The translations under genes and the position numbers were made by a program. A model generated the notes under the pieces. The model was given only the letters and a program-made list of their open reading frames with translations. It did no database searches and was not told the DNA's origin. Shown piece by piece: positions 36,135-54,384 of a stretch of DNA of 64,000 bases (position 1 is the stretch's first letter; every line of letters begins with the position of its first letter). Source of the DNA: Psychroflexus salis (lineage in GTDB: Bacteria > Bacteroidota > Bacteroidia > Flavobacteriales > Flavobacteriaceae); assembly GCF_014640175.1 (NCBI RefSeq), contig NZ_BMGL01000008.1, positions 124,001-188,000 of the forward strand, in the 5' to 3' direction.

Positions 36135-36225
36135 GGTTTTAAAGATGCCTTAAATGCTTTTAATGACTGAATCATCAATTCCTTTATAATTCAAGATTAC
36201 TCTTTTAAATCGCCTTAAAATCAAT

Positions 36226-36999
36226 TTAATAAAACAGTTTATGTATGATGGTTTTAAGAATTGGTTTTTCAATGCGTTGACTGATATGACTTCGTTGTTC
36301 GATTAATTTATTTTTTAATGAGTCAAAGTGATTCAATTTTCCGTATTCAATATATTTTATTAGTTCGTTTTGATAAGCATTATTGAGATGTGTTGACTCT
36401 AAAATTAGTTCTTCAATAGAGTTATAAAAACCAATGTTGATATTATGCTTAAGGCAAGCAAAAGAAGCTATTATTTCATACTTGCGATATAATTCCATTA
36501 TTTCGTTTGGTTCATTTAATTTTAAGGCATAAGATACGAACATGATTAAAAGTCTTTTTTTAGGATTGATTTCATCCTTTTTAGACTTGATATAAGTCCT
36601 GTCTAATTCACTAATTTTATAATCAGCAAAAAACATATCTGAGATTAATTCACAATAAACAGAAAAGCTTTTTTTAGTTATTTCTTCATTGAAATTAATC
36701 TCAGTAATTGAAGTAAGTAAAGTTTGTTTTCCAAGCTTTTCATTAATGTTATAATCAATAAATTCATTTGATAAAATAATGTGCGAAATCAATTCAATTT
36801 TGTTTTCTGAAACTAAACTTAATAATGGAGTATCAGAATTGGTTAATAAGTTTAAATCAATCTTCTTATTGAGATAATTAATTTCGTTTTCATTAAAATT
36901 ATACCGTTCTGTAAAGTCTTTATTATTGCTTTTATTTTTTACATAATTCTCAAAATCTTCAATGTAATTATCTATTATATTTTTTTGCCAGTTCTTCAT
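36226..36999 (-). CDS. Hypothetical helical protein
   Basis: A 257-aa Asn/Lys/Ile-rich, predicted all-helical protein with no motif I recognise. The middle (NPKKRLLIMFVSYALKLNE) is hydrophobic but not a convincing TM helix. Its base composition is even more AT-rich than neighbours, as is the gap that follows. Convergent with the SRAP gene. Confidence 0.55.
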   Translation of the reverse strand: MKNWQKNIIDNYIEDFENYVKNKSNNKDFTERYNFNENEINYLNKKIDLNLLTNSDTPLLSLVSENKIELISHIILSNEFIDYNINEKLGKQTLLTSITEINFNEEITKKSFSVYCELISDMFFADYKISELDRTYIKSKKDEINPKKRLLIMFVSYALKLNEPNEIMELYRKYEIIASFACLKHNINIGFYNSIEELILESTHLNNAYQNELIKYIEYGKLNHFDSLKNKLIEQRSHISQRIEKPILKTIIHKLFY

Positions 37000-37672
37000 A
37001 TCGTAAAATTAAATAACTGATAACTGAACACATATTAATTAACTTAAAAGTGTAATTAACATTATAATGGGTTTAAACGAAATGAAATTTATCACTTGTT
37101 GATTAGTATAAGCACTTAAATTAATCAACAATTAATTAATTAATTATAATTCAAAACCTGATTATAATAATGGTCTTCAATTAAAATCAATTAAGTTGAA
37201 CTATTAAGTTCAATCAATTATTTAAAAGTTTTAATGAATTAATTATATTGCTAATCTTTAATCAATGAATAAAGTTCCATGCTTTAAATTGATTTAATAA
37301 TTCATTATTTAATGAGTAGTAATTTTCATTTTTAATGAATTAAATAATTTCAATGCTTTAATAGAAATTATTTGATTGAAATTGATTTATTGTAAGCTAA
37401 AAAAGTCTGCTTAAATAATCATTTGATAAGCTCAATTAATAATCTTTAATTAATAAGTTTTATCTTTTTTAATTTCAATAGATATTAATTACTCCAATAA
37501 TTTAATTAATAAAAATCCAATTATTCTTTCCTTGTAATGGATGTTAATAATAAAACCTATTTGTAATGTACCTAATTAATCAAAATTAATTCTGCTTCAT
37601 TAATTTGAAGCTTGTTTTTCTATTTATTACCAAAATGAGTTCAAGTCTTTTTGATTATTATAAGCGTTTAAA
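37000..37672. other. 670-bp extremely AT-rich non-coding region with repeated TTAATTAAT words
   Basis: No gene. The stretch is dominated by TTAAT/ATTAA words, and a 29-bp imperfect direct repeat brackets it: 37100-37128 and 37652-37680 (TGATTA.TATAAGC..TTAA), 25 of 29 identical. It lies between the integrase gene and the next island gene. Possible roles are an element replication origin, a nucleoid-protein (xenogeneic silencing) nucleation site or a degenerate sequence; nothing shown here decides. Confidence 0.5.
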
Positions 37673-38950
37673 TTAATTAAAGAAACTATGCTCTGCTATT
37701 TGTCGTGCTTTAAATTTTGCAGAAGCTTTAATGTAATTGTAAAAAACTTTTTCTGTTTTGTGACCAGATATTGCCATTATTTTATGTGGCGCTACACCTG
37801 CATTATAAGCATTGGTACAAAAGCTTCTTCTTGCAGTATGTGATGAAATAAATTTATATTTAGGTTCAGTTATTTTTTTAACCGACCCACCTATTGTTTT
37901 AATTAAAGTATATTCATCATTAATTTTTGCTTTTTTCGAGATTGATTTAATGTATTTTGAAATAACCGATGGGTCAATTTTTGGGGGAAATTCTCCATTT
38001 CTTCTTTTAATAATACGTTTTATTTTTTCATTTATAGGAATATATACTTCATTACCTGTTTTTTGTTGTTTCATGTGTATATAATCTCTTTTTCCTTCAG
38101 ATATTAATTTTGGCTCTTTAAGGAAAAGAAATAGGTCTTGAACACGCATTCCAGTATAGCAAGCTATTAAAAATGCATCTCTAACATTTCTTTCAATTTC
38201 AAGATTCAACTTCAAATTAAATATTTTGTCTAATTCTTCTACTGTTAGGTAAGGGTGATTAACTTCTTCACTAAATTTTGAAAAATATCTTTTTTGAAAT
38301 TCTCTATTTTCATGTACATCATTATCGTAAGCTGAGCCAATAATGGTTTTTAATTTTTGAATCATTGAACCTATATAATTTCGTGAATAATGTTTTTGAT
38401 TACCGAATTTTATAAAATCATTGTAGAACTCTTCATTCATATCTTCAAAAACAAAATCTTTTATTTTTCTTGAACGCAGATAACGATTAAAGTAACTTCT
38501 CATATTTTTATATGATTTCAGAGTCCCTTTACCTAATGGTTTTTTTGTAGTCGGGGAGTTGTTAATCGTATAATATTTTAAATACCAGTCCATGTAGTCT
38601 AATACTTTTTTTGGTAATTGATTTTCAGACTCTTCTTCATCTTCTAAGCCTAATATTTTTTTAATTTCATGTTTACAGTTTTTTTGAGATAATTTTTTTT
38701 GTCCAATTAAATCGACCACCTTAGATTCAATATCTAATTCAATGTCGTTAAGTTTTTTATTAATTTCGGTGTCATTTATAATACTACTTGGCTTTTTAAT
38801 CCTTTGTTTTTTATCATCCCAAAATTTTTCATGCCCCTTACTGATGTTTATTTGAGTTGAGAATCTTACTCTAATGGAAGCTCCATGTCTAAAATCTAAC
38901 AAAATAGTGTTTGTTTTAGACCCTTTTCTTAGTTTAAATTTAGTCTTCAT
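37673..38950 (-). CDS. Tyrosine recombinase (phage-type integrase)
   Basis: A 425-aa integrase. An N-terminal arm-binding region is followed by a SAM-like core-binding domain (SRNYIGSMIQKLKTIIGSAYD) and the catalytic domain: ACYTGMRVQDL (first Arg, about residue 268), the lysine hairpin around QQKTGNEVYIPI, HTARRSF (HxxR, about 371-374), and GHKTEKVFYNYIK (His and nucleophile Tyr). It sits about 200 bp from the attR copy of the tRNA end, with the same transcriptional orientation as integrases that read away from attR. It integrates and, with an excisionase, excises the island. Confidence 0.93.
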   Translation of the reverse strand: MKTKFKLRKGSKTNTILLDFRHGASIRVRFSTQINISKGHEKFWDDKKQRIKKPSSIINDTEINKKLNDIELDIESKVVDLIGQKKLSQKNCKHEIKKILGLEDEEESENQLPKKVLDYMDWYLKYYTINNSPTTKKPLGKGTLKSYKNMRSYFNRYLRSRKIKDFVFEDMNEEFYNDFIKFGNQKHYSRNYIGSMIQKLKTIIGSAYDNDVHENREFQKRYFSKFSEEVNHPYLTVEELDKIFNLKLNLEIERNVRDAFLIACYTGMRVQDLFLFLKEPKLISEGKRDYIHMKQQKTGNEVYIPINEKIKRIIKRRNGEFPPKIDPSVISKYIKSISKKAKINDEYTLIKTIGGSVKKITEPKYKFISSHTARRSFCTNAYNAGVAPHKIMAISGHKTEKVFYNYIKASAKFKARQIAEHSFFN

Positions 38951-40695: not shown

Positions 40696-41196
40696 CTAAC
40701 ATGTACTTTGATTTAAAATCTCCCTATCAATCTCCCAAATATTATCAATTCCTAGTGAAATAATACGATCCATCACATGATCTTGTGTTCTATTTTTTAA
40801 AAGGAAAAAGTTAAATAAATGTGTGAATTCGCTTTCTTTGGTAATATTTGGATTTGGATCAAGATTACCAAAATAAGCTTGTCTAAAATCTTCATTGTTA
40901 TCTAAACGACCTGAAATTAAATCGACAGTTACATCTTCATAAAAATCTATTGCTCCAATAAGCTCTAACTCATAAATGTAACTAAGTGATTTAGATTCTT
41001 CAAAGAATAAATACATATATTCATAACCACCCTCTTCACGATACTGATTTTCAACTACAATCATTTTATCGTCATTTCTTTCTGCATCTAATACTTGAAT
41101 AGAAATCAATTTAAATTGCTCAAAAACTTTTTTACTTATATTATTTAAACGAATATAAAAGCAAGAGTTATATAAAAAGGGGTTGTCAAAGTTCAT
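40696..41196 (-). CDS. Hypothetical protein at the end of the TerY-P-like operon
   Basis: A 166-aa soluble, acidic protein, not recognised; regular alternation of strands and helices (FEQFKLISIQVLDAER, EYMYLFFEESKSLSYIYELELIG). It follows the zinc/TM gene by 26 nt on the same strand and is the last intact gene of the operon-like run. Confidence 0.55.
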   Translation of the reverse strand: MNFDNPFLYNSCFYIRLNNISKKVFEQFKLISIQVLDAERNDDKMIVVENQYREEGGYEYMYLFFEESKSLSYIYELELIGAIDFYEDVTVDLISGRLDNNEDFRQAYFGNLDPNPNITKESEFTHLFNFFLLKNRTQDHVMDRIISLGIDNIWEIDREILNQSTC

Positions 41197-41222
41197 GGAT
41201 TAAAAATTAAGCTTGATAGCTA

Positions 41223-41972
41223 TTAAATGTATTGAAATATTTTATAAGTGAAAAACAAAACAGGTATTTGTTCGTAAAATTTTTCTTTAATATATAAAGG
41301 GATCAAAACCAATAGAAGAAAAGGTTCTTTAATTAAGTTAACTTCTAAACCTTCATCTAAAATACGATCGTCGCTAAAATAACCAACCAATAATTCTTTA
41401 ATTTTAACACGCAAAAAATTATAATATAATATGTAAAAAATAAATACACAAATGATTTCATATAGAACACTTGTAAGGATGGCACAAATCAAAAACACAC
41501 CTATTAAAAAAAGTAAAGCAGATGCTAAATGAGAAATAATACTTTTATACCATAAAGATTTATTCTTTTCCTTTTTTATTTCATTTATATATTGAATTTC
41601 AGCTCTCTTTTTTCTTTCATAACGTGCCTTTTCATCTTTTGTAAATCCATTTGAATCAACCCAGGTATAATCATCTGATTTTTTGTGCTTTATTGCACAC
41701 TCATCACTACAATATTCATATCTTCTGTAATTACCTGCTTTTCGCAAATGCCAATTAACACCATCACTCGGATAATACTTATCACTACAGTAATAGCATT
41801 TTTTTCTTTCATCATAAGTATTGTAGTTTGTTTCATTTTCAAAACGAGATGCATGGCCTCTACAACAAAACAAAAATCTTTCGCGATAACCTTTTACATT
41901 ATAATCAGAATAAATCCAAGTACTATCGTCGTTAGAGTACCTTTTTTTTCCGCACCATTCACATTTATCCAC
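41223..41972 (-). CDS. Zinc-ribbon membrane protein
   Basis: A 249-aa protein. Three or four Cys/His clusters come first: CEWCGKK (4-7), FCCRGHASRFE, CYYCSDKYYPSDG and YCSDECAIKH, a treble-clef/TRASH-like arrangement (CxxC and CSxEC). A charged linker then leads to two hydrophobic segments (about residues 150-200). It is likely a membrane-anchored metal-binding or protein-binding protein. 10 nt downstream of the DUF1566-domain gene, so co-transcribed. Confidence 0.65.
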   Translation of the reverse strand: MDKCEWCGKKRYSNDDSTWIYSDYNVKGYRERFLFCCRGHASRFENETNYNTYDERKKCYYCSDKYYPSDGVNWHLRKAGNYRRYEYCSDECAIKHKKSDDYTWVDSNGFTKDEKARYERKKRAEIQYINEIKKEKNKSLWYKSIISHLASALLFLIGVFLICAILTSVLYEIICVFIFYILYYNFLRVKIKELLVGYFSDDRILDEGLEVNLIKEPFLLLVLIPLYIKEKFYEQIPVLFFTYKIFQYI

Positions 41973-41982
41973 ATTAAATATT

Positions 41983-43059
41983 TTAATTACTAATTAATAT
42001 AATAGTACCTCTTCTTTTATCAAAGGCATTGGCATACTTTTTCCATTCTGATATCTCACCTGTTTGAAAATCTAATACATTCACAAAAAACTTTTTGGGC
42101 TCTGTTGAGGACCAAACAGGAAGCTCTGGAGAAAGATTTAAGGACTCTCGATGCTTGTATAATTGCCCTAATTCAATAATAGAAGGTAAACGCCAATTTG
42201 ATTTATTGTGCAATTTAAATTTATTGAAACTTCCTAAGAAAGATTCGGGATATGTGTGCTCCCCTAATGCACCATAAACAATAGACAATCCCCACTCATT
42301 AGTCGTATTTATATGTACAGCTAATTCTCTATCAATAATAGATGAATATTTAAGGTCACATATAGCCAATAAAGGAAGCAATTGCTGCAGTTGCTGTTGG
42401 TTGTTGCATTTCTCATGAGTACCTTTTTCAACATTAAAAATACTAATTGTATTCGTGTTGGAATCCCTACACCAAAGGAGTTTATATGATTGTAAACGCA
42501 GTTCTTCAGCTTCGCTTTTCAACTCATCTGAAGTGGGATATCTCCAGCTATCCGTTTTTTTAAATTTATACTGATTTAAAAAACCAATGGCCGCTCCGTT
42601 TGAATCACAAAGCATCTTTAAATCCGATGATGTAATTTTGTTGTTTATGGATAATGAATTGGTAACTTTACTATTTACTAAATTATTGGTTATCTGAGCT
42701 CTACCATGTTCTTTGATTTCAGAATCAAAACTATTCTCTATGGTTAAAAACTGCCTGATTTCAATATTTAGACCCTCACAAAAAGCATCAAAAACTTCAT
42801 AAGCCCTATCATCAAAACCATTATTCTCTTTAAACTGGGTTCTTAAATTAAGTACTTCAAATTCATTATTTTGATTTTTAAACTTGTTTAATTTAGTCAT
42901 GAGTTGTGAATCAACAGCATGCATCAAAATAGTGTGATAAGAAGGGTGTAAATCAGGTTGCAAGTCTTTTACAATTGCTAAAACACTTGATTTAAGCAGT
43001 ATATCTTGATCAAAACGACTTAAAAGTTCTTTTAAAATATTGTTGAATTTATTTTGCAT
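41983..43059 (-). CDS. DUF1566 (Lcl C-terminal) domain protein with N-terminal helical module
   Basis: A 358-aa protein. Residues ~1-105 are a helical module shared with the N-terminus of the adjacent gene (NLRTQFKENNGFDDRAYEVFD). The C-terminal two-thirds carry two DUF1566/Lcl-like units: SWRYPTSDELKSEAEEL with LWCRDSN, and NWRLPSIIELGQLYKHR with VWSSTEPKKFF. Lcl-type domains have a C-type-lectin-like fold and often mediate binding. Overlaps the upstream gene by 11 nt. Confidence 0.7.
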   Translation of the reverse strand: MQNKFNNILKELLSRFDQDILLKSSVLAIVKDLQPDLHPSYHTILMHAVDSQLMTKLNKFKNQNNEFEVLNLRTQFKENNGFDDRAYEVFDAFCEGLNIEIRQFLTIENSFDSEIKEHGRAQITNNLVNSKVTNSLSINNKITSSDLKMLCDSNGAAIGFLNQYKFKKTDSWRYPTSDELKSEAEELRLQSYKLLWCRDSNTNTISIFNVEKGTHEKCNNQQQLQQLLPLLAICDLKYSSIIDRELAVHINTTNEWGLSIVYGALGEHTYPESFLGSFNKFKLHNKSNWRLPSIIELGQLYKHRESLNLSPELPVWSSTEPKKFFVNVLDFQTGEISEWKKYANAFDKRRGTIILISN

Positions 43060-44269
43060 CTTGTATTTCTTGAATTTTAATTCTCAACTTTTCTCTTTTG
43101 AGTTGCCAATATTCATTGTAGTTATAATGTTCTATTTCCTCATCAGATTTATAAGGACTCCTTTCAGTTGAAGGATGAACAAGATCAGGTATTAAAATTT
43201 TAGCACTATCAATCAAGCCGTCTTGTAAATAATTGTTGATTTTTTCATATTTTTTCTCAAGCTGAATTGATAACACCTGTGCTTCATCTTCTCTCTCATC
43301 CCTTTCTTCACTTCGATTTAAAGCCCAAAAAACAAGCACGCCTATAGAGATTAATACTAGAGCCCATACTAAGGGAGAATCTCCTTTACTATCCTTTCTT
43401 ACCAGCCAATTGAAAAAGGTTCTAAATGATTGATTTCTTTTTTGTTTCCTAAGTTCTCGAGCTTTAATTTTTTCTAACTCTAACTTTTTTTGCTCCTCTT
43501 GTTCTTTCGCCTCTTGTTCCTTCTTTTTTAGCTCAAGTTCTATTTGCTTAATCTCAAGTTCTTTGTCTTTTTGACTTACAAGTCCTTGATCTTTTTGAAC
43601 AGCTAATACTCTTCTTTGCTCTCTTTCCCTATCAAAGTCGATATCATTTGATTTTTGATATTCTCTCTTTATTATAGATTCCTCTACCCAATCGTATTTT
43701 AGAAGAATTTCTTTATTCTTGGGTTGTATAGCATCAGAATAAGGTAGTGGCTTAAGATTAAAATCCTTGATACATTTAACTAATGATTCAAAAATTTCAT
43801 TTTCTTTTAAACCAAATGATTTACCTTTATTAAAAATGTTAATCATTTCATTTTTTTCTAAGCGCTTATCAGCTATAGCAAGTTCTATTAACTCACTTAT
43901 ATGAATGCCGTTAGCTACTTTTGTTGCCTTGTATTCAAGTGGATTTAAATCTTGTTTTAAGCCTAAACCGAACAAATAAACATCAAAGACCAAAGCCGCC
44001 ATTTTTGGTTCTAAGCCTGTATTGTCAACAAAATCTTGCTTTAAATTGGATACTAATATAGCTTGATTAGAATCATCTTCATCCCTAAGTTTTTTTAATT
44101 TTTCTGGTAAAGTTAGCTCGTCCGCTTTTTTCAATACACTTATAATTCTTTTGTCAATGTTGTTTGCTATATCGTTAAGTACGGCATAAAGGCCCTTTTT
44201 TTCAAAATAACTACTACTGTACTTTGATTTTAGACTTTTAATTTGATCGATAAAGTAATTTATTTCCAT
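43049..44269 (-). CDS. Single-pass membrane protein with coiled coil and shared helical module
   Basis: A 406-aa protein. Residues ~1-110 form a helical module resembling that of the DUF1566 protein (LVSNLKQDFVDNTGLEPKMAALVFD). A second helical region follows (residues 120-190), then a long charged coiled coil (residues ~205-275, Lys/Glu/Gln), one TM helix (PLVWALVLISIGVLVFWAL, about 300-318) and a helical tail. It probably anchors the complex at the membrane (inference). One nt separates it from the DA1-like gene. Confidence 0.7.
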   Translation of the reverse strand: MEINYFIDQIKSLKSKYSSSYFEKKGLYAVLNDIANNIDKRIISVLKKADELTLPEKLKKLRDEDDSNQAILVSNLKQDFVDNTGLEPKMAALVFDVYLFGLGLKQDLNPLEYKATKVANGIHISELIELAIADKRLEKNEMINIFNKGKSFGLKENEIFESLVKCIKDFNLKPLPYSDAIQPKNKEILLKYDWVEESIIKREYQKSNDIDFDREREQRRVLAVQKDQGLVSQKDKELEIKQIELELKKKEQEAKEQEEQKKLELEKIKARELRKQKRNQSFRTFFNWLVRKDSKGDSPLVWALVLISIGVLVFWALNRSEERDEREDEAQVLSIQLEKKYEKINNYLQDGLIDSAKILIPDLVHPSTERSPYKSDEEIEHYNYNEYWQLKREKLRIKIQEIQDAK

Positions 44270-44270
44270 A

Positions 44271-44999
44271 TTATGCGTATTGTTTCATTAAATTTATAGT
44301 TTTTTTCCATCCAGAATTCAAGTATATCGTTTTAACTTTTCGATAGCCTTCTCCATAAACTGGGTCAGGACTTTTTTCCATTTGCTCCAACAAAATAGTA
44401 GAAAATTTGGTGTTTATTTTTTGATACATCGCCATTGCGCCTAGATTACAGAATCCTTCACAAATATCTTTTGGTGGATTAATGTTATGTTGATACTGCC
44501 ATACATGCATGTACTCATGAGCTAGAATACCGGCAAAAAAGGTTTTGGGTAAATTGTCAAGAACAAAAATCTTAAATTGCTTATTACCTCCTGTAGCGAA
44601 ATATTGCGCTAACCCGAAGGTGTCACCCATAGCTTTATTATTCTGCAAATGAATCAGTTTCTGCTTAGAAACGATCTCTATAGGTATTTTTGGTAAATTG
44701 GTAATTCCTACACTTTGCAACACCGATTGAACACGCTGATCTACCCAATTGATAGCTGTATCATTTGCAACAACTGATGGTATGCACACCTCACAAATGA
44801 ACCTTCCATCCTGTAGTTTTTTATGATTTTTATTCAATATTCTTCCACAGCTAAAACAATTTCCATCGATACAACTGAGATGAGCGGTTTGTTCCCAAGA
44901 ATCATAGCCATATTGTCCTAACAATACAACGTCACACACCACACATTTTTTGAATTGTAGTGCATCTGAAACTTGAGCGATGACGTTTTTGAATGACAA
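44271..44999 (-). CDS. LIM domain + DA1-like zinc metallopeptidase
   Basis: A 242-aa protein with two parts. Cys19, Cys22, His40, Cys43, Cys48, Cys51, Cys69 and Cys72 form a complete single LIM domain. The C-terminal part has AHEYMHVW (HExxH, 161-165) and ICEGFCNLGAMAMY (Glu181, third zinc ligand), then DPVYGEGYRKV, matching the DA1-type peptidase domain of plants and bacteria. Plant DA1 is a ubiquitin-activated peptidase (family knowledge). Here it may cleave a partner of the kinase/phosphatase system (inference). 14 nt after the PP2C gene. Confidence 0.8.
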   Translation of the reverse strand: MSFKNVIAQVSDALQFKKCVVCDVVLLGQYGYDSWEQTAHLSCIDGNCFSCGRILNKNHKKLQDGRFICEVCIPSVVANDTAINWVDQRVQSVLQSVGITNLPKIPIEIVSKQKLIHLQNNKAMGDTFGLAQYFATGGNKQFKIFVLDNLPKTFFAGILAHEYMHVWQYQHNINPPKDICEGFCNLGAMAMYQKINTKFSTILLEQMEKSPDPVYGEGYRKVKTIYLNSGWKKTINLMKQYA

Positions 45000-45013
45000 A
45001 ATGAATAATCAAA

Positions 45014-46384
45014 TTAGTTTCCGAAAAATTTATTCAGTAAAGACTCTAAAAAGGATTTTGTCTTTTGATGTTCACTTTCAACTTTTTGAATATTTTGGAT
45101 TTTATTTTGCTTCACTCTTTCAATATTACTTAACTCTCCCTCTAGCTTTTGTTTTTGTGCCTCTATCTCATCTCTTTGTTTTTTGAGATTTACTTGCTTA
45201 TCTTCCTCTGCGAGGATTTTTTCTTTAAATGCTAAAACAGCTGACTGAGATTGATCAAAACTTGATTTGAGTTCATTTAATTGCTCTTCTATAGCTACTA
45301 TTTTATTCAATTTTGAAGCTAGATTAGATTCGTACTCTTTCAATTCTTGTTGTTCTTGCGCCAATTTCTCCTCTGCTTCTTTTAGTTTTTGCTCTGCAGC
45401 TATTTTTTCTTTATTTATTATTTTCTTCAATCCCGCTTCTGGATCTGATAAATTTATCCATCCTGCAAAGGATAAGTCATCCTTTTGCTTGGAGTCCTTT
45501 AAGCTCCAAGCAGGTAAAGCCTCTTTAATCATTTCATAACCTTTTTCATATCCGTTATTAAAAAAGGTTTTAGTAATTAATTCATAATCTTTTGTAATCT
45601 CAGGTATTGTATAAAAATCTAAATCTCCATAACGTCCCTCCATACCGTCTGAACCTATAAATAAAGCGATTAACTTTTTAGTGCCATAAGCAAATCTAAA
45701 ATTATCAAAAGCATTTGATTGACACATAGATGTAGTTGTGCTTCCTTCACATTGTGGATCTTTAGGAATTGGAGCAAAATCATTCATTTCCTCATCGAAA
45801 GCAATACACATTCCATCTCCTAACTGAAATGCAAACCAAAAGTCTTTAGTTTTTAAAAATGCCAATATCGTACAACCATAAGCAATTTCAATTGCTTCAT
45901 TATTGAGAAAATTTAATCTTCTTTTCTCTGAAACACCTTTTTCAATTAAAAAGTCTTCAGATGGCATATTTTCTTGCCAATGTTGGTAAATACCCTCTTG
46001 CCATTTTGATATAATTGACTTGAATAAATGATTAAGTACATCTTCATTTTTAGTTTTATTCGGACTTCTTTTATCTTCAAAAACTGAATCTTTTTTTTGA
46101 TTTAATTCAGTAATTGTTTCCCTAGTTATAAACTCTTCTTGAAATAATGTGTTATCTTGAGCTTCTGCAAAAGTCTTCAGCAACTCCATTGTTCCATTCA
46201 CTAAAATAGTAGAGCCTACATCACTTCTAAAATAATCTTTACTTCCGTGACCATCACTTACAACTCCAATGTAAATTTCGTTTTCACGATCTTCGTAGCT
46301 AATAACAGCATCCTGACATGGTATTCCTTTTTTGACATGGCTTTGACCAATGGTTACTGCGTGAAATGTTCTGATATTTTCCAT
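45014..46384 (-). CDS. PP2C-family protein phosphatase with C-terminal coiled coil (TerY-P triad)
   Basis: A 456-aa protein. The PP2C-like domain has PCQDAV (~22-27), VVSDGHGS (41-48, metal-binding Asp), AFQLGDGMCIAF and FIGSDGMEGRYG. Residues ~305-456 form a long coiled coil. PP2C enzymes reverse Ser/Thr phosphorylation; with the kinase and TerY-like vWA protein encoded upstream this fits the TerY-P triad described for Ter-linked stress systems. The coiled coil could pair with the coiled-coil membrane protein two genes downstream (inference). Confidence 0.82.
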   Translation of the reverse strand: MENIRTFHAVTIGQSHVKKGIPCQDAVISYEDRENEIYIGVVSDGHGSKDYFRSDVGSTILVNGTMELLKTFAEAQDNTLFQEEFITRETITELNQKKDSVFEDKRSPNKTKNEDVLNHLFKSIISKWQEGIYQHWQENMPSEDFLIEKGVSEKRRLNFLNNEAIEIAYGCTILAFLKTKDFWFAFQLGDGMCIAFDEEMNDFAPIPKDPQCEGSTTTSMCQSNAFDNFRFAYGTKKLIALFIGSDGMEGRYGDLDFYTIPEITKDYELITKTFFNNGYEKGYEMIKEALPAWSLKDSKQKDDLSFAGWINLSDPEAGLKKIINKEKIAAEQKLKEAEEKLAQEQQELKEYESNLASKLNKIVAIEEQLNELKSSFDQSQSAVLAFKEKILAEEDKQVNLKKQRDEIEAQKQKLEGELSNIERVKQNKIQNIQKVESEHQKTKSFLESLLNKFFGN

Positions 46385-46407
46385 ATTATTTATTCTAATT
46401 TGTTATA

Positions 46408-47508
46408 CTAAACCCAACCATCATCATTAAAATCGGGGATATTACTGTTTTTTGACAACGTTTCATCATTACCAAATTTTGGAAGGTTATTTTTTTTCGG
46501 AACGCTCTTCATTTCTATTTCCATCTCATTTACCTGAAAAATTAACCCTTCCATCTCTTTCAATTTTATTAGTATTTTTAATGGATCTATTGATTTAACT
46601 TTAGCCCTAGCACACCAAAGTATTTTTGTTTCATGGATAATAGAATATAAAATAGAATCGGATATATTTTCAATGTTCTCTTTAAAATCAAAATCATCAC
46701 CACCGCCAGCCCAAACGGCAAAGCCAATCAAATCTTTCTCAATATTTCCTTGAAAAGCAAAACATTCAATATTACAATCATTAAGATTCCATCCAATTCG
46801 GTTGAAACAATAGTTTGACAGTAAAATTATTTTCCAATTCAATTCTAAATTATTCCACCACTCTCTTTCTGAATTAGAAACAGATACTGCAGCACCTACA
46901 AGTTCATCTATTTGACAATAAATATTTTTAAAAACATTGATGTCGGATAGACTCATTATTGCTTCAGGCGAAATGGTGAGGATTTCAAATAGTTGATGTT
47001 GGTTATCCAGACTATCTCCTAACGAAATTGCAAATTTAAAAGCAAGTCTGTACAACTTATTTCCTTTGAGTTGTTTTTTTACATGACTTACATTTGAAAG
47101 CTCTATGCTATCTCCGTTTAAAAGGAATACAATCGAGGGGGGACCGGCATGTCTCATGTCTTGAGAAAAGAGTTCGTGACTTAAGTTCGAAATCAGTTCT
47201 TGAAGAGCGTTTTCAAGGTTACAATCGCTACTTTCAGGAGAAAAATCCTTGTAAATAAAATCACTGACTGGCACCAAACTCTCATACATCCATTCTGATT
47301 TATCCGAAATTTTTAGAACATTGACATAGATTGATGTTTCACCAGCATAATTTTCTTTGAACGAATCCCTCACCATATCTAGAATCTCTGTAATCTTTGT
47401 TTTAACAATGAGTAGCTTTTCCTCATTAACAGCATTTGAGGCGTCCACCAAAAAGCGTATTTGGTATATTTTTCTTTTCCACTCAACTCTTTCTATTAAT
47501 TCATTCAT
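46408..47508 (-). CDS. von Willebrand factor A-like protein with degenerate MIDAS
   Basis: About 366 aa from the ATG at 47508. This start gives MNELIERVEW, parallel to MNELLERAES of the TerY-like protein, whereas a longer frame starts inside the repeat gene. The vWA strand is IRFLVDASNAV: Asp22 and Ser24 remain but the second Ser of DxSxS is Ala26, so metal binding is doubtful. The C-terminal ~150 residues are unknown, ending in an acidic tail (PDFNDDGWV). Next to PP2C (23 nt). Confidence 0.7.
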   Translation of the reverse strand: MNELIERVEWKRKIYQIRFLVDASNAVNEEKLLIVKTKITEILDMVRDSFKENYAGETSIYVNVLKISDKSEWMYESLVPVSDFIYKDFSPESSDCNLENALQELISNLSHELFSQDMRHAGPPSIVFLLNGDSIELSNVSHVKKQLKGNKLYRLAFKFAISLGDSLDNQHQLFEILTISPEAIMSLSDINVFKNIYCQIDELVGAAVSVSNSEREWWNNLELNWKIILLSNYCFNRIGWNLNDCNIECFAFQGNIEKDLIGFAVWAGGGDDFDFKENIENISDSILYSIIHETKILWCARAKVKSIDPLKILIKLKEMEGLIFQVNEMEIEMKSVPKKNNLPKFGNDETLSKNSNIPDFNDDGWV

Positions 47509-47518
47509 AATACAAATT

Positions 47519-47950
47519 TCAAATTCTTGCCAACAAACAAACCAACACAGAAACTTTACCCATACATCCCCCTTCTGCAATCAGCAGGCGTTCGTTTTTA
47601 CTACCGCCAGAAGTGGACGACCACAAGGTATCTCCATCAATGATATAGAGCCGCTTATCTTTGCTACCTCTACTGGTTGATGACCATATCGTATTACCAT
47701 CAAAAATGTAAAGCCGCTTATCTTTAGACCCGCCACTGGTAGATGACCATATGGTAGTTCCATCAATAATAAATAAGCGCTTATCCTTTGATCCACCTCT
47801 TGTGGATGACCAAATTGTTGTGCCGTCTATGATAAAAAGTCTGTCAGATTTAGACCCACCGCTTGTAGATGTCCAAAACGTATCTCCTTCCAAGATATAA
47901 AGTCGCTGGTTTTTAGAACCTCCGCTTGTTGATGACCATATTGTACACAT
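47519..47950 (-). CDS. Six-fold 21-residue repeat protein
   Basis: A 143-aa protein built of six tandem 21-residue units with the pattern TIWSSTSGGSKxxRLyIiDG, then a short hydrophobic tail (MGKVSVLVCLLARI). Trp, the SSTSGGSK turn and the RL.I.DG strand are kept in each unit, which predicts a repeated beta-hairpin or small propeller/solenoid. I do not know a family. It lies between the two vWA genes, 10 nt before the second, on the same transcript. Confidence 0.7.
   Translation of the reverse strand: MCTIWSSTSGGSKNQRLYILEGDTFWTSTSGGSKSDRLFIIDGTTIWSSTRGGSKDKRLFIIDGTTIWSSTSGGSKDKRLYIFDGNTIWSSTSRGSKDKRLYIIDGDTLWSSTSGGSKNERLLIAEGGCMGKVSVLVCLLARI
47560..47944 (-). repeat. Tandem 63-bp coding repeats (six copies)
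   Basis: Six 63-bp units encode the 21-aa repeats. Units differ at many third positions (for example three different codons for the conserved Arg) while the protein is conserved, so the array is old and under protein-level selection rather than a recent expansion. Confidence 0.75.
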
Positions 47951-48116
47951 AAGCTTTTTCTTTAGTTATTCTTTTCTGTTTCTACTAAAAAGTATTCTCT
48001 ATTCTTTGACTGATATATGCAATAAAATTCCACTAAAAAGTAAAACTACTTTATAACCAAATATTTTTGAAGCAAAATATGCCATAAAAGTTTTACGCTT
48101 TTATGGTTCAAATCAA

Positions 48117-48908
48117 TTATGTAAATGCGCTAAAATCTAAATCTCCAAAGCTATCATTACTTGCGGTAACTGCTCCATCTACATTTGCGTCAACAGCACT
48201 ATTTACAGCCTTATATGTATCCTTCATGCCCTGCTCATCAATTTGAGCATCGGTCATACTTGCAGAAGAAGTTGGAGCTTGACTATTACTTGTAATTTGA
48301 GAAGCTGTTACAGAAACTACTTCAATCATTTTACTTAATGTCGCCACATCTTTAGCTAGCATAATTCCTTCTACATGCCCTAAGAAACTATATAAAGCCT
48401 CAAGATTTTCTTTACTAACAGCATCATGACCAATGGCAATAGCAAATTTCTGAGATAATTTAAACCATTGATTTTGCTTTAATTTATCCACATGATGACT
48501 CCACTCATCTGTTGGCTCTCCATCTGAAAGCAAAATAATAACAGGTTGATTATAGCCTTCAGGATCACTTAATAAAGCGTTTCTGGATAATTGTTCGTTC
48601 AAAGATTTACAAGCAGCACCAAATGCGGTCAATCCTCTATCCGTAACTATATCCACCCAATTAAACAAATGTGGCTCAACTAATGCAGGTGTAATCCAAT
48701 TCGGAGTATGGTCAAATTCCATTACACCAATTTTAATTATAGCTCCATCGTTTTCATTAGTAATCTTTTTTAACTCTGGCAAAATATCAGCCATACTTTT
48801 GTTTACAGAGGCAATTTTTGCTCCAGACATACTGCCTGATTTATCAATAATAAAAATCAGGGGCATTACCTTGTTTGCAGATTCAGCTCTTTCTAATAAC
48901 TCATTCAT
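48117..48908 (-). CDS. TerY-like von Willebrand factor A domain protein (TerY-P triad)
   Basis: A 263-aa vWA protein with an intact MIDAS: FIIDKSGSMSG (Asp22, Ser24, Ser26), GLTAFGAAC (Thr) and LLSDGEPTDEW (Asp). Residues ~60-200 match the TerY pattern (VIILLSDGEPTD, KFAIAIGHDA). A Ser/Thr/Ala-rich C-terminal tail ends LDFSAFT. TerY proteins associate with PP2C and kinase partners in tellurite/stress-type systems (family knowledge). It starts 21 nt after the kinase. Confidence 0.85.
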   Translation of the reverse strand: MNELLERAESANKVMPLIFIIDKSGSMSGAKIASVNKSMADILPELKKITNENDGAIIKIGVMEFDHTPNWITPALVEPHLFNWVDIVTDRGLTAFGAACKSLNEQLSRNALLSDPEGYNQPVIILLSDGEPTDEWSHHVDKLKQNQWFKLSQKFAIAIGHDAVSKENLEALYSFLGHVEGIMLAKDVATLSKMIEVVSVTASQITSNSQAPTSSASMTDAQIDEQGMKDTYKAVNSAVDANVDGAVTASNDSFGDLDFSAFT

Positions 48909-48929
48909 CGTTTTTGTTTTTATTTGTTA

Positions 48930-50174
48930 TTAAATTATTTCGGTTTGCTCATTATTCGGCAAGTTTATTTTCAATCCTTTATTCACTGGCATCATACCAT
49001 TTGGCTCTACAGAAACTTGATTACCTGTTGGAGTAATAACCCGCCAAGGTACGGATGAAAGATTCTTAATTATCCAAACATTTGGTTCATCCGATTTAAA
49101 CATTACTTGTCCTACAGGTTGGTTATTCGTTCCTAAATAAATTGTCTTTTTCGGGCTTAAAAAAATCATTCCTTCGGATGTTTTTAAAGCGACCTTAGGA
49201 AACTCTCCATCCTTTAACCAACTTTCTTTTCCTTTTTCATCCATTATTAAACTGTTTCTCAAAGCAACAACCGTTTTCTGCCATTCTCTGAGATTAGGGC
49301 GTTTATTAAAATCAGAAGGGTTTTTAATACTATCCTGACTAAACGCCTTTACAAAAGCATTTTTTAATAATGATGGATACAAGGGCCACAGCTTAATAGA
49401 GTTTTTATGGACATTTGGCACTGGTCTATTTAAATCTATGTTGGGATCGAATATAAAAATTGGTTCTTTACCATAAATTTTTCTTGCAAAAGACGGTGAC
49501 ATTAATGGCACAGATAAATGTCTCTTACCTTCGAGTGGATGATCTGTAAAGAATAATCTAAATAAAATAATAGCGAGAGAAAAACAATCGCTATAAACAT
49601 CTGGTTTCCTTGCATCAATAACAACTTCAGGTGCCATATATCTCGGCTTTCCTTTAATTCCAAGATTGTAACCTGGAGGTGTTACGTTATCGTTATCACA
49701 AATAAGCACATGACCGTTTTCTGGATTAACAAAAAAGTTGCCTTCATTCAAATCTTGATAACTCAATCCTGCTTGATGAAGAGCTTGGAAACCGGCACAA
49801 ATATCTACAGCACAATTTAACATAGCAGAGATTGTCTTAAACTTAACTTTATTTTTTAAAAATGCCCCAAATTCATAATATCCATCTGGTCTTAAATCCA
49901 TTACATAGCCGAAACTGTCGTGCTGTTTTTCTGTGATCATCAGTGGCCATAAAAAAGCTTTTGATCCATTTGGCGCTTGATTCTGTACATTTGTTTTGAG
50001 ATTATTATAAAAGGTATCTGGATAGTGTTGAATATACCATTTAAGCGCATACTGCTGACCGTTAAATTCGCAGAGATATACGATACCCTGTCCTCCGCGT
50101 CCGAGTTCTTTTTGAACCTTTACTTGCCCGCCATTGGTGAGCTTAATCATTGTTCCTTGTTTTAGTTCTGACAT
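48930..50174 (-). CDS. Serine/threonine protein kinase (TerY-P triad)
   Basis: A 414-aa kinase. N-lobe: LGRGGQGIVYL (24-34), ALKW with Lys45. C-lobe: catalytic loop YQDLNEGNF (Asp141, Asn146) in place of HRD, metal-binding CDNDN (Asp160) in place of DFG, and YMAPEVV (180-186). The C-terminal ~100 residues are beta-rich and unknown (EGMIFLSPKKTIYLG...). The HRD and DFG changes are typical of kinases in this phosphorylation module as I remember them; catalysis is likely retained as Lys, Asp and Asn are present. Confidence 0.85.
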   Translation of the reverse strand: MSELKQGTMIKLTNGGQVKVQKELGRGGQGIVYLCEFNGQQYALKWYIQHYPDTFYNNLKTNVQNQAPNGSKAFLWPLMITEKQHDSFGYVMDLRPDGYYEFGAFLKNKVKFKTISAMLNCAVDICAGFQALHQAGLSYQDLNEGNFFVNPENGHVLICDNDNVTPPGYNLGIKGKPRYMAPEVVIDARKPDVYSDCFSLAIILFRLFFTDHPLEGKRHLSVPLMSPSFARKIYGKEPIFIFDPNIDLNRPVPNVHKNSIKLWPLYPSLLKNAFVKAFSQDSIKNPSDFNKRPNLREWQKTVVALRNSLIMDEKGKESWLKDGEFPKVALKTSEGMIFLSPKKTIYLGTNNQPVGQVMFKSDEPNVWIIKNLSSVPWRVITPTGNQVSVEPNGMMPVNKGLKINLPNNEQTEII

Positions 50175-50191
50175 AATTATTGTTTTAATTT

Positions 50192-50437
50192 TTATTCTAT
50201 AATCCAGCTACCACCATTTAATTTCTTTTGCTGTTTTTTAATCAACAAAAACGTTTCTGCGTCCTCCTCTCGAACAGAAATTACTCCCTTAGACAACTCT
50301 GGATAACGAAGATTTTTATCTGTAATTTTAAATTCAGCTTCCGGAAAATCATTTAGAAATCCCCCTTCACTAATCTGCTTCCAAATACCTGGTGTTGTAA
50401 CACCTGCTTCAACTAGTTTTTTCATTGAATCATTCAT
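50192..50437 (-). CDS. Small hypothetical protein
   Basis: 81 aa, soluble, with no known motif (MNDSMKKLVEAGVTTPGIWKQI...). Starts inside the end of the preceding TM gene (8-nt overlap) and ends 17 nt before the kinase, so it belongs to the same transcript. Start could be M1 or M4. Confidence 0.55.
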   Translation of the reverse strand: MNDSMKKLVEAGVTTPGIWKQISEGGFLNDFPEAEFKITDKNLRYPELSKGVISVREEDAETFLLIKKQQKKLNGGSWIIE

Positions 50438-50723
50438 TTAATTTAAAAATTAGGGTGAAAATCATTATACCACCCCATACAATTCCAGATGCAACTCCGT
50501 TACTCCATAAGAGTTTTCTTTTCCATATAGTAAATGGTGGATATTTGAATTTATCAAGATAAGATACCGCATAATTATCGCTATATTTTAAAAGAATTAA
50601 ACTCAATGGATACCCCACTCCAAAATAAATGATGCCAAATAAAACGGACTCTATGCCTATAGCAAGGATAACACCTGCTATTCCCCAAAGAAAAATATTG
50701 ATAACATAAATCAGCCAAATCAT
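50430..50723 (-). CDS. Small membrane protein with about three TM segments
   Basis: 97 aa; hydrophobic stretches at residues ~2-22, 25-45 and 72-92 (IWLIYVINIFLWGIAGVILA, GIIYFGVGYPLSLILL, NGVASGIVWGGIMIFTLIF). Not recognised. ATGA overlap with the upstream lipoprotein gene shows tight coupling. Confidence 0.6.
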   Translation of the reverse strand: MIWLIYVINIFLWGIAGVILAIGIESVLFGIIYFGVGYPLSLILLKYSDNYAVSYLDKFKYPPFTIWKRKLLWSNGVASGIVWGGIMIFTLIFKLNE

Positions 50724-50977
50724 TTAGATTCTATTTTTAGTGTATCATTTTTAGTAGCATTGGTATTTCCTCCTAATTTATCTCCCACAGAATATTTATT
50801 GCATTTATCCTCAAAGGTTTCTTTTCTGCCATATCCTTCATAAGTGTACATGCAGATAGTTGGAATTAAGGAATATTCTTTTTTGAGTATGACTGGTTCT
50901 CCTTGGTGATAATTAGCATTATTTTCTTTATTTGATTGGCAGCTAATTAAAATTAAAACATAAAACAATCCACCCAT
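50720..50977 (-). CDS. Small lipoprotein
   Basis: 85 aa from the ATG at 50977: MGGLFYVLILISCQSNKEN has a signal peptide with lipobox LISC, so the mature N-terminus would be Cys13. An earlier in-frame start would overlap the zinc-ribbon gene and bury the lipobox. The mature part contains CMYTYEGYGRKETFEDKC; function unknown. ATGA overlap with the next gene. Confidence 0.65.
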   Translation of the reverse strand: MGGLFYVLILISCQSNKENNANYHQGEPVILKKEYSLIPTICMYTYEGYGRKETFEDKCNKYSVGDKLGGNTNATKNDTLKIESK

Positions 50978-51020
50978 AATATATATAATGAATTTAAAAA
51001 CTATATATAAAAGGAATTTA

Positions 51021-51260
51021 TTAGTCAAATCCACCATCAGTCCAATTTTTTGAACAGTCATTACAATAGTATTTAATATTTATCCATTTCTTGTAAAAAA
51101 ACACAATTGCTGCTCCTATTCCTATAGTTATCAAAATGCTGGAGATCTCTCCCGATTGAAAACCATAGTATATAACAGCTAGAGCTATTAAATAACCTAT
51201 CCAAACGCTTTGGCTGGTTTTTGAACTTACATTTTCGGAGTTACAACGGATACATCTCAT
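51021..51260 (-). CDS. Zinc-ribbon protein with two TM segments
   Basis: 79 aa: CIRCNSE at the N-terminus and CNDCSKNW at the C-terminus bracket two TM helices (VWIGYLIALAVIYYG and ISSILITIGIGAAIVFF). The two Cys pairs probably meet to form one zinc ribbon on the cytoplasmic face. Start overlaps the previous gene's stop by 4 nt (ATGA). Confidence 0.65.
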   Translation of the reverse strand: MRCIRCNSENVSSKTSQSVWIGYLIALAVIYYGFQSGEISSILITIGIGAAIVFFYKKWINIKYYCNDCSKNWTDGGFD

Positions 51261-52360
51261 GATTTAGTTCTCTCTTCTTTTTTAAACAATGCCCTCGGGT
51301 TTCTATTTTGCGGTAAAGACTCATATGCTTTGGGCAAATAAACTTGGGTGACTTGCTCATATTCGGGCCATATTTTGGTGTTTTCTGCTTCTGTCGGATC
51401 CATTAGAATGTATTTAGGTAAACAATTTTGCATGGCTTGGTGTAAAAAAGAATTTTCATCACTAAACAAAGCATAATTGGTACTACCTCCATGATCTTGC
51501 AATACCAACACATCAGGGGCTAATTCGTTTTCGCACAAAATTTTTGCAGTTTGAACGCCTTCTGTACCCAGATACGTTAGGGTGCAATCCAAATTTTTTG
51601 ATTGGAATTCAAATTTTTTACCCCAAGCCTCTGCGGGTTCATGCCCCATCATTTCATCTCTATTTACATTAGTAGGCCAAAAGTCTTCCCAACAATCTTG
51701 ATTAAAATCTTGTGGTGCAAGAACACTTGTGTTGATGTTGTTTTCAAGTCTATCAATAACTTCGCTCAATTCTTCAATAGACATATAATCAGTGAAAAAT
51801 AATTCAACACCTTTAATGTGTCTCCCAAACAATTGAAGCGGACTAAAATCCATGCCTGCGCCAGGGTAATACACCCGTTTTATTTCTGAGTTGTATTTTT
51901 GAAGGTAATACTCTAGTGTCGGTAAATCATTGTCTGCAGTTATTTGATCCAAGACTGGCTTAGTATTCAAAGGTAAAAGCTTTTTTTCGAGGTAACTAAA
52001 ATCATTATCTTCAGCAATATATTGTAAAGCCGTTGCTAATTCGTCTGAATCTATTTTAGATTGAAGCCGAAGTGAATCGTGAAAATTTTGTATTAGAACA
52101 ATACCTTTATCGTTGTACTCCAATGCATAAAAAACTTTGCTCTTTGACTCAACTTCTAGTTCCAATAACAAATCAAAAAATATATTGAAATCAGCAGGAT
52201 TAAAATCAGCAAACTTATCAAAATCAACAGTATTGAAAACGAAATCACTTTGATTAGAAGTAGTTTTAAATTGAACAGCTATAATAGACAAATCATTAAT
52301 AAAACTGTTGTCAGTTAATCTAAGATGCACATATGATTTGGTTGCTATTTTCATGTTCAT
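51257..52360 (-). CDS. Protein with C-terminal Rossmann-like domain (paralogous to the 59-63 kb genes)
   Basis: A 367-aa protein. The N-terminal ~155 residues are unknown. The rest begins VYYPGAGMDFSPLQLF, then VELFFTDYMS, and DVLVLQDHGGSTNYALFSDENS. The order (beta strand-Gly loop, acidic second strand, GG..YALFSD) mirrors the 59376 and 60323 genes and a SAM-methyltransferase-like fold. No catalytic motif is evident. First gene of the operon that runs to the TerY-P triad. Start may be M1 or M3. Confidence 0.65.
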   Translation of the reverse strand: MNMKIATKSYVHLRLTDNSFINDLSIIAVQFKTTSNQSDFVFNTVDFDKFADFNPADFNIFFDLLLELEVESKSKVFYALEYNDKGIVLIQNFHDSLRLQSKIDSDELATALQYIAEDNDFSYLEKKLLPLNTKPVLDQITADNDLPTLEYYLQKYNSEIKRVYYPGAGMDFSPLQLFGRHIKGVELFFTDYMSIEELSEVIDRLENNINTSVLAPQDFNQDCWEDFWPTNVNRDEMMGHEPAEAWGKKFEFQSKNLDCTLTYLGTEGVQTAKILCENELAPDVLVLQDHGGSTNYALFSDENSFLHQAMQNCLPKYILMDPTEAENTKIWPEYEQVTQVYLPKAYESLPQNRNPRALFKKEERTKS

Positions 52361-53796: not shown

Positions 53797-54384
53797 TTAT
53801 GACAATTTAATCAATTCAATGGTTTTTAGTTGTTCAGCGTTGTATTTGATTTTTCTGTTTATGTTAAACACGCCAATAATGCCATCCGTGTATTTCAATA
53901 ACTGCATATTGTCTTGAAACATATAATTTACATCAGCTAAGTTTGGTTTACTATCTTGTCTGGTTTCACTGGTTCTATCCAATTGTAAAATCAACACAAT
54001 ACAGGTGTTGTTTTTTTGCGCCATTTTTTTAAAATAATCCAAATCAAACTTATTCTCTGACGGCAATAACTGTAAATAATTAACAACCACTAAGGCATAG
54101 TCTTTTTGAGATAACAATTTACTGAATTCGGTGTCTACCAAATAACTCGAATCATCAAACACATCTATAAAACCAAGGTCATACTGCTTATTCAAGCTGT
54201 CTTTAGATAAATCTAAATTAAAAAACAAGGTGGGTATATCAGCGGAACAAGCGGAGGCAATGCTTAGCATCAAAGGCATTTTACCCATCCTAGGTCTACC
54301 GGCAAGAACATAAAGTTGTCCCGGTGCAAAATGGCCAAATTTCTCATCCATTTCTGAATTACCGGATGTTATTTGTGTCTTCAT
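53797..54384 (-). CDS. DnaB-helicase C-domain-like protein with degraded Walker motifs
   Basis: A 195-aa protein aligning in outline to the RecA core of DnaB: GQLYVLAGRPRMGKMP (Walker A, where the final Thr/Ser of GKT is Met) and ALVVVNYLQLLPSE (Walker B, Asp replaced by Asn). It lacks the DnaB N-terminal domain. Nucleotide hydrolysis is unlikely, so this is either a structural derivative or a gene on the way to decay. Confidence 0.6.
   Translation of the reverse strand: MKTQITSGNSEMDEKFGHFAPGQLYVLAGRPRMGKMPLMLSIASACSADIPTLFFNLDLSKDSLNKQYDLGFIDVFDDSSYLVDTEFSKLLSQKDYALVVVNYLQLLPSENKFDLDYFKKMAQKNNTCIVLILQLDRTSETRQDSKPNLADVNYMFQDNMQLLKYTDGIIGVFNINRKIKYNAEQLKTIELIKLS

Follow-up and report, generated by a model that had tools for sequence, protein, structure and literature searches.

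A TerY-P-type kinase, vWA, and PP2C locus of Psychroflexus salis with a candidate helical adaptor module

Introduction

The triad formed by a serine/threonine kinase, a TerY-like vWA protein, and a PP2C phosphatase, known as TerY-P, has been published as an anti-phage and signaling cassette (PMC7699616, PMC11090510, PMC10889362), and such triads protect against T7-like phages or Autographiviridae (PMC7699616, PMC10889362). All our statements on published work refer to the accessible parts of the papers; within these, the literature found does not state how the triads sense or what they act on. Here, we describe a locus of this type in Psychroflexus salis (genome of 2.87 Mb in 38 contigs; ~32% G+C). 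It lies in a stretch of 64,000 nucleotides, positions 124001-188000 of contig C8 (NZ_BMGL01000008.1), which we call the window and whose coordinates are used throughout. Its genes are all on the minus strand and run from 50174 down to 40696: the kinase, a first vWA protein (vWA1), a repeat protein, a second vWA protein (vWA2), PP2C, a LIM-DA1 peptidase, two proteins with a common helical module, a Cys-rich transmembrane protein, and a small protein of unknown function. The conserved element beyond the triad is the helical module of the proteins encoded at 43049-44269 and 41983-43059, of which a preliminary description of the locus gave a mere hint. On balance, we lean towards a variant of TerY-P in which the phospho-switch recruits exchangeable sensor and effector proteins via a dedicated adaptor domain, with defense against phage or a related stress as its likely role.

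The likeness to published TerY-P triads lies in the same three families, their adjacency, and the intact metal-ion-dependent adhesion site (MIDAS) and kinase motifs. The gene order is vWA-PP2C-kinase on the Klebsiella Ter plasmid, whereas this branch has kinase-vWA-PP2C; two of the three vWA proteins of that plasmid have LPPPPPE near their ends, whereas those of this branch have an acidic-aromatic tail; and an OB-fold is reported in the kinase of the tested systems (PMC11090510), whereas an FHA fold is predicted here. The module was found at E<=0.01 in none of the loci of Klebsiella, Nostoc, and Granulicella (L154, L155, and L156). Another relative is the GAP1-N2 theme (Kaur et al. 2020, PMC7159879), which has a matching kinase (zinc ribbon and beta-rich domain) and the same PP2C and vWA genes, and whose kinase/PP2C/vWA set is probably the same core as the one described here. 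That theme is actinobacterial and has a GTPase, whereas no GTPase partner occurs among the scanned open reading frames (ORFs) of the window, and the accessible text of its description makes no mention of the helical module. The TerY-P triads associated with CoCoNuT (PMC11090510) share with this branch a second vWA protein with an incomplete MIDAS and, in some loci, FtsK-like, Hsp70, and LRR partners; in contrast to them, the scanned window ORFs include no McrBC-type core.

The architecture around the triad resembles that of the effector-associated domains (EADs) of ternary conflict systems, where one small domain is fused to many sensors or effectors per locus type. However, in their published description (PMC7159879) a core component bears an EAD as well, whereas here the core is a phospho-switch, not MoxR, VMAP, or STAND, and the module is found on no core component. 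The literature on the triad, conflict adaptors, DA1, and His-Xaa-Ser, as far as its accessible text goes, does not describe the module, its link to this triad branch, the FHA fold, or the vWA tail; the module has no name, and an earlier mention is possible. More precisely, the accessible parts of PMC7159879, PMC10907252, PMC10910872, PMC11090510, PMC10889362, PMC7699616, and PMC5322733 do not mention it. The suggestion of an undescribed system, made in the preliminary description, hence fits the adaptor architecture and not the triad, because the latter is already in print.

Results and Discussion

Comparison set and conservation of the triad

An alignment of the kinases of the window, Prevotella, and Methylomonas, searched against species genomes, gave at least 547 relatives among at least 590 candidate stretches. 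Our comparison set comprises 83 loci: the best 80 relatives of this search, two plasmid loci, and the window. The best 80 belong to Bacteroidota, Bacillota, and one Synergistaceae metagenome-assembled genome, and the plasmid relatives, from Prevotella (47%) and Methylomonas (34%), cover more than 80% of the kinase. At a threshold of 1e-20, the kinase was found in the window genome alone among the 299 genomes of a family sample and again among the 395 genomes of a phylum sample (own genome included in both). A scan of viral contigs with the single kinase sequence gave no match, and one with the kinase alignment retrieved five putatively viral IMG/VR contigs (L157-L161), two of which (L157 and L159) have a full triad plus two module genes each.

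All ORFs named in the preliminary description exist at their coordinates on the minus strand, with Pfam matches to Pkinase, VWA_2, PP2C_2, DA1-like, and Lcl_C, and the grouping of three of them as a TerY-P triad is borne out: the kinase is shared with 82 other loci, a vWA gene occurs in 77 loci and PP2C in 75, and the order kinase, vWA, PP2C is kept within four genes in 72 of the 83. Judged by their sequences, the kinase, the TerY-like vWA protein, and PP2C are a same-strand triad of the TerY-P type. The kinase (48930-50174) matches Pkinase at 1.7e-16 over residues 19-218, and its catalytic motifs YQDLN.GNF and ICDNDN are invariant or nearly so across the 83 aligned kinases. The PP2C phosphatase (45014-46384; PP2C_2, 5.9e-27) has a C-terminal extension that looks coiled-coil-like by eye, and DGHG is present in 75 of the 75 members of its cluster.

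The vWA1 protein (48117-48908; VWA_2, 1e-7) has the DxSxS start of the MIDAS, as DKSGS, together with LLSDGE and an acidic-aromatic C-terminal tail. Within the vWA cluster (window vWA1 counted, vWA2 excluded), the MIDAS motif D.SGSM is found in 76 of the 77 members. The tail, defined by a Trp among the final six residues plus at least two acidic residues among the final twelve, occurs in 68 of the 77 complete ORFs of this cluster and in 23 of the 771 other complete ORFs of at least 150 residues. The second vWA protein, vWA2, groups with the TerY-like vWA proteins in the clustering and has the tail (FNDDGWV), but it lacks DxSxS, and its VWA match is weak (0.0011, below the cut-off). Its start is probably the ATG at 47511, giving 46408-47511; a start at the TTG of 47580 would make it overlap the repeat gene.

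An FHA fold is predicted for the last 99 residues of the kinase (48933-49229). Their model, which has a predicted local distance difference test (pLDDT) score of 89.5, resembles the FHA domain of APLF in Foldseek (E 9.3e-4, probability 1.00) and aligns in VIA-align with FHA-containing proteins at a Z of 9.8 over 86 residues (root-mean-square deviation 2.7); some of these VIA-align matches are proteins that we take to contain FHA. Among the folds returned by these two comparisons, FHA is the best match. A zinc ribbon with two CxxC pairs precedes this region in 55 of the 83 kinases. The window kinase has no such ribbon and in this differs from the CoCoNuT-form and Ter-form TerY-P kinases, which have a C-terminal one.

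A helical module shared by otherwise unrelated partner proteins

A helical unit of ~100 residues is common to two window, four Prevotella, and five Methylomonas proteins that are otherwise unrelated. An iterated profile, for which the two window copies and the four of Prevotella served as seed, matched 81 ORFs in 57 of the 83 loci (79 ORFs in 55 loci without the weak matches of L065 and L066), so that the co-occurrence of module genes with the triad, surmised earlier, is found in most loci. The module is N-terminal in 76 of these ORFs and C-terminal in 5, and in 52 of the 71 loci with a gene at that place it is encoded no more than three genes beyond PP2C. Because these loci had served to train the profile, the window was retested with its own rows held out: both copies were still found (41983-43059 at 1.6e-12 and 43049-44269 at 3e-11), with no further match among the 67 window ORFs and none among 1340 shuffled sequences.

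The first of the two window proteins, encoded at 43049-44269, combines module copy 1 (43943-44269) with a stretch that resembles TerB by eye (residues ~110-195; unproven), followed by a coiled coil and a transmembrane segment, both also read by eye. It is related to a module protein of L005 over 169 residues (BLASTP, 1e-16). The Pfam TerB model reports no place in the window; near the module match of L005, at a distance of 13 bases, it has one that stays below threshold (21.8 bits; cut-off 24.4). The second, at 41983-43059, joins module copy 2 (42748-43059) to an Lcl_C domain (1.5e-8), which we take to be equivalent to DUF1566 and to have, presumably, a C-type-lectin-like fold.

The Asp of an L-x-D motif is an invariant column over 61 module copies, and the AlphaFold2 model of the module has seven helices (pLDDT 92.9; predicted template modeling score 0.86). 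A Pfam scan of the 61 modules at E<=1 gave no family matching more than two copies among the matches listed, which cover 25 of 63 families ranked by members; the EAD models of Pfam match at most one of the 61 in the same set. Foldseek returned nothing at E<=0.001 with this model (best 1.7). A VIA comparison with 28 chains gave Z values of at most 5.7, under the chance level for helical bundles. The high-scoring sequence matches in the PDB are all to engineered helical-repeat proteins over a stretch of 43-44 residues (4rzp, 4.2e-18; 4rv1, 3.1e-10; 4hxt, 1.5e-6), and we take them as compositional. The predicted structure of the module thus appears to have no convincing relative in the PDB, and we do not claim a new fold.

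What the modules carry is diverse. A Pfam scan at 1e-5 of 78 of the 81 module proteins (a 2302-residue one and the two weak matches were left out) identified 17 partner families, including LRR_5 (15 proteins), WG (6), FGE-sulfatase (4), parts of FtsK (up to 3), Sel1 (2), and MORN (2), with Fib_succ_major, Lcl_C, Clp_N, zf-C4_ClpX, and others seen once; several partners have transmembrane parts. The clusters of kinase, vWA, and PP2C contain none of the 81 module ORFs, which suggests that recruitment is probably heterotypic, between the module and a part of the triad.

The converse, a homotypic assembly like that of EADs or death domains, would have activated modules polymerize together, with the triad merely licensing the polymerization. 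EADs offer a precedent (PMC7159879), and the modules can be numerous: the genome G680 has eight matches, and L003 and L008 have five module ORFs each in a single locus. However, a core copy, as described for EADs, is what the triad proteins lack, and modules inside one locus share 15-34% identity, L003 and L080 being the exceptions. We regard this alternative as unlikely. Methylomonas, the only match of a single-sequence module search in plasmids, has five modules whose partners are unrelated. They are 91-98% identical, and in 10 of 10 pairs the codon differences are more often synonymous than not. This constancy is consistent with all five modules binding one target; recent duplication is the alternative.

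Co-occurrence of module and kinase

Another explanation is that an ordinary TerY-P triad has hitch-hiking neighbors, the module being a common bacterial helical domain that lies nearby by chance. The accessory genes do differ greatly between loci, and some modules lie off-locus. Yet the window genome has two module matches at E<=0.01 (43049-44269 at 1.8e-18 and 41983-43059 at 6.1e-19), both at this locus, and among the 395 phylum genomes the module, as the kinase, was found in the window genome alone, the other 394 lacking both. In 27 kinase-bearing genomes, a chosen subset of the 80 loci, we found 40 module matches in 21 genomes with a cut-off of 1e-6, and 39 of the 40 lie near triad genes: 36 within ~16 kb of a kinase on the same contig and three more beside other triad genes of the same genome. 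Among these three, L109 and L113 adjoin a kinase. The third, L104, lies on a different contig from L035 (the same locus as L110), shows no difference from it over 3303 bases, and is possibly an assembly duplicate. The fortieth match is a 120-residue frame on G680:C93.

We further analyzed 201 genomes of another family, picked via one carrier, with thresholds of 1e-5 for the module and 1e-20 for the kinase. The module occurs in 9 genomes, the kinase in 11, and both in 8 (Fisher test, 2.6e-11, not corrected for kinship). Physically, the module is tied to the triad more loosely in this sample: seven of the 16 module matches are at most 10 kb from a triad, and the one in G763 lies at a contig end and could adjoin a triad that ends at another contig end. 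This two-way co-occurrence already counts against hitch-hiking, as does the span of the module-triad link over Bacteroidota, Bacillota, and one gammaproteobacterium, and we find that explanation very improbable. A module-FGE gene paired with a UvrD-like helicase gene was seen as a satellite on the triad-less stretches L136, L138, and L141, and also in L002 and L012.

Accessory genes and the Ter connection

The LIM-DA1 zinc metallopeptidase (44271-44999; DA1-like, 1.1e-11) has HEYMH, EGFCN, and three CxxC pairs. A DA1 gene occurs in five of the 83 loci, and HExxH, EG[FL]CN, and the three CxxC pairs are kept in all five, the window included. Plant DA1 (PMC5322733) is similar in its LIM-type CxxC pairs and the HExxH site of an MA-clan peptidase, and it is a latent zinc peptidase that ubiquitylation activates. 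The window protein differs from it in being bacterial and linked to a kinase and a phosphatase, in its 242 residues, and in having no matched ubiquitin-binding part. The repeat gene between the two vWA genes (47519-47950) contains a 63-bp tandem array and encodes a beta-flower-like protein with ~21-residue repeats (Bflower_3, 7.3e-4; 19.9 bits, below the cut-off of 34). Downstream, 10 bp after the module/Lcl_C gene, comes the gene of a protein with a Cys-rich N-terminus and a transmembrane segment (41223-41972), then that of the protein of unknown function (40696-41196); a small ORF directly upstream of the kinase (50192-50437, minus strand) is of uncertain membership. The calls of zinc-ribbon/transmembrane proteins and a lipoprotein for the outer genes are readings of the sequence, with no family over the cut-off.

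The accessory genes do not form one conserved set: in addition to the scarcity of DA1, BLAST clustering of the ten genes to either side of the kinase gave no partner for the beta-flower, Cys-rich transmembrane, and outer small genes among the 82 loci besides the window. Distant counterparts are possible, since the same clustering missed the window module proteins, which were found by the profile alone. The comparison of gene neighborhoods proposed at that time therefore shows homologous loci lacking most of the accessory genes, and does not turn against the module. The lack of clustered counterparts for the beta-flower protein and the outer genes might also suggest a chance collection of unrelated island genes. 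This is contradicted by the order of the triad in 72 loci and by the order PP2C-DA1-module, which recurs in L061, L067, and the window with a coiled-coil-like stretch on the module partner; we give such a collection practically no credence.

No TerA/B/C/D/Z gene was detected with Pfam among the 20 ORFs of 40.7-62.8 kb, nor a MoxR-type ATPase beside a vWA gene among the scanned ORFs of the locus. The absence of Ter genes noted earlier thus stands for the window, but the branch is not wholly apart from Ter: by their tested representatives, clusters of TerD occur in 13 of the 83 loci, of cation ATPases in 9, of transglutaminase-like proteins in 10, of HSP70 in 7, and of the His-Xaa-Ser set in 12, and a TerY_C-type protein occurs in 32, that is L002 and 31 clustered members, all 31 of which match the L002 protein. 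These associations, HSP70 aside, and the transmembrane parts of several module partners argue for an alternative role in metal, tellurite, or envelope-stress sensing, Ter-like and not immune. In it, vWA, TerD, and the P-type cation ATPase would detect or transport metals, and the membrane or surface would be remodeled by the module proteins. However, no Ter gene or metal pump occurs among the scanned ORFs of the window locus, restriction genes and an integrase lie near it, the kinase is missing from the sister genomes G174 and G640, and TerY-P triads alone protect against phage in the accessible published work. We hold a Ter-like role to be rather unlikely.

The His-Xaa-Ser radical-SAM genes lie downstream of triad and module in L006, L008, L011, L018-L021, L027, L030, L035, L036, and L075 (for example, L020:7356-10858). 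Among the cluster representatives, HxsB, HxsC, and HxsD pass the NCBIfam cut-off and HxsA stays below it. We found no paper that treats His-Xaa-Ser, radical SAM, and a kinase together.

Proposed mechanism and points against it

In the phospho-switch with interchangeable partners that we favor, the module would be a docking tag that joins sensors and outputs to the triad, and the acidic-aromatic vWA tail would be its first candidate ligand, which makes the recruitment step directly testable. A partner that binds ligands, here the Lcl_C or the beta-flower protein, could sense a trigger, and the module partner with coiled coil and transmembrane segment would place sensing at the membrane. Sensing would shift the balance between kinase and PP2C, and the complex would then release its output, here most likely LIM-DA1 proteolysis near the membrane. 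LIM-DA1 is encoded between PP2C and a coiled-coil module protein in three loci, and the activation of plant DA1 by ubiquitylation makes a modification-gated protease plausible. Defense against phage or a related stress is the likely biological role by analogy, because of the published TerY-P tests (PMC7699616, PMC10889362) and the island setting.

If the module marks the partners of the triad, any protein that carries it becomes a candidate sensor or effector. By association with the module, the candidates include FtsK-like ATPases, LRR proteins, HSP70-linked sets, LIM-DA1 proteases, and the His-Xaa-Ser radical-SAM system. A more specific version of this reading would be that a switch of FHA-kinase, PP2C, and vWA assembles swap-in sensors and effectors through the undescribed helical adaptor, heterotypically and with the vWA tail as docking peptide, as a phosphorylation-gated counterpart of death-domain and EAD immunity across Bacteroidota and Bacillota. 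We put this version forward tentatively, at somewhat less than even odds. A dedicated adaptor domain would add a further way, beside death-like domains and EADs, of plugging interchangeable parts into bacterial conflict systems.

Several observations weigh against an adaptor-based switch. There is no module in 26 of the 83 loci (28 without the two weak matches), some of which are cut by contig ends, and none at 1e-6 in six of the 27 carrier genomes; conversely, eight of the 16 matches in the 201-genome sample lie on stretches without a triad, and G798 has three module matches and no kinase match. In four Bacteroidales loci (L014, L022, L023, and L026), the triad partners share a TPR-like N-terminal unit, recognized by eye, as if it replaced the module. 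The proposed output, DA1, is limited to five loci. As for the triad, the tail of the window vWA1 (SFGDLDFSAFT) has Phe in place of Trp and falls outside the tail definition, the Pfam FHA profile has no match in the kinase at E<=0.1, and the phosphopeptide-binding residues of the FHA fold are not evident by eye. The PADLOC matches of the kinase are to mad6 (7e-17) and PD-T4-6 kinases, which probably reflects general kinase similarity. No TerY-named PADLOC model matched the window proteins or the classical Klebsiella proteins, so that PADLOC is no test of TerY-P here. In addition to its TPR-unit partners, L014 has one module protein.

Island context and neighboring genes

To the left of the triad lie a type I restriction system (22.8-30.0 kb), a fusion of GmrSD_N to a Schlafen AlbA_2 domain (31398-33512; PADLOC PDC-M55C, 1.4e-62), and a tyrosine integrase at the left edge (37673-38950, minus strand; Phage_integrase, 6e-12). 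The two same-genus genomes G174 and G640, from which the kinase is absent, do not match the DNA of 50-64 kb, apart from a single stretch of 84 bases in one of the two. Their matches to the DNA of 34-41 kb lie only around the gene at 35.4 kb and, for G640, also in an integrase-like stretch with 65% identity. The restriction and integrase setting and these gaps in the sister genomes are consistent with a genomic island. A duplicated tRNA-Arg attachment site was considered as its border and rejected: no second copy lies nearby, and one copy with one mismatch is on another contig. Beside the integrase, the region 36000-37700 is strongly A+T-rich with many imperfect short repeats.

Further to the right, a 661-residue protein (57333-59318) ends in DSDDDDDLPF, which we take to resemble the C-terminal tail of bacterial single-stranded DNA-binding protein, and matches no Pfam family at 0.1. 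Three ORFs that look alike (59376-60320, 60323-61477, and 62806-63237) flank a Fib_succ_major protein; they have no Pfam match where scanned, and two of them begin with MKTL[LV]YLASG. Finally, a 195-residue ORF (53797-54384) matches DnaB_C at 1.6e-19, is shorter than this 255-position domain, and is possibly a remnant.

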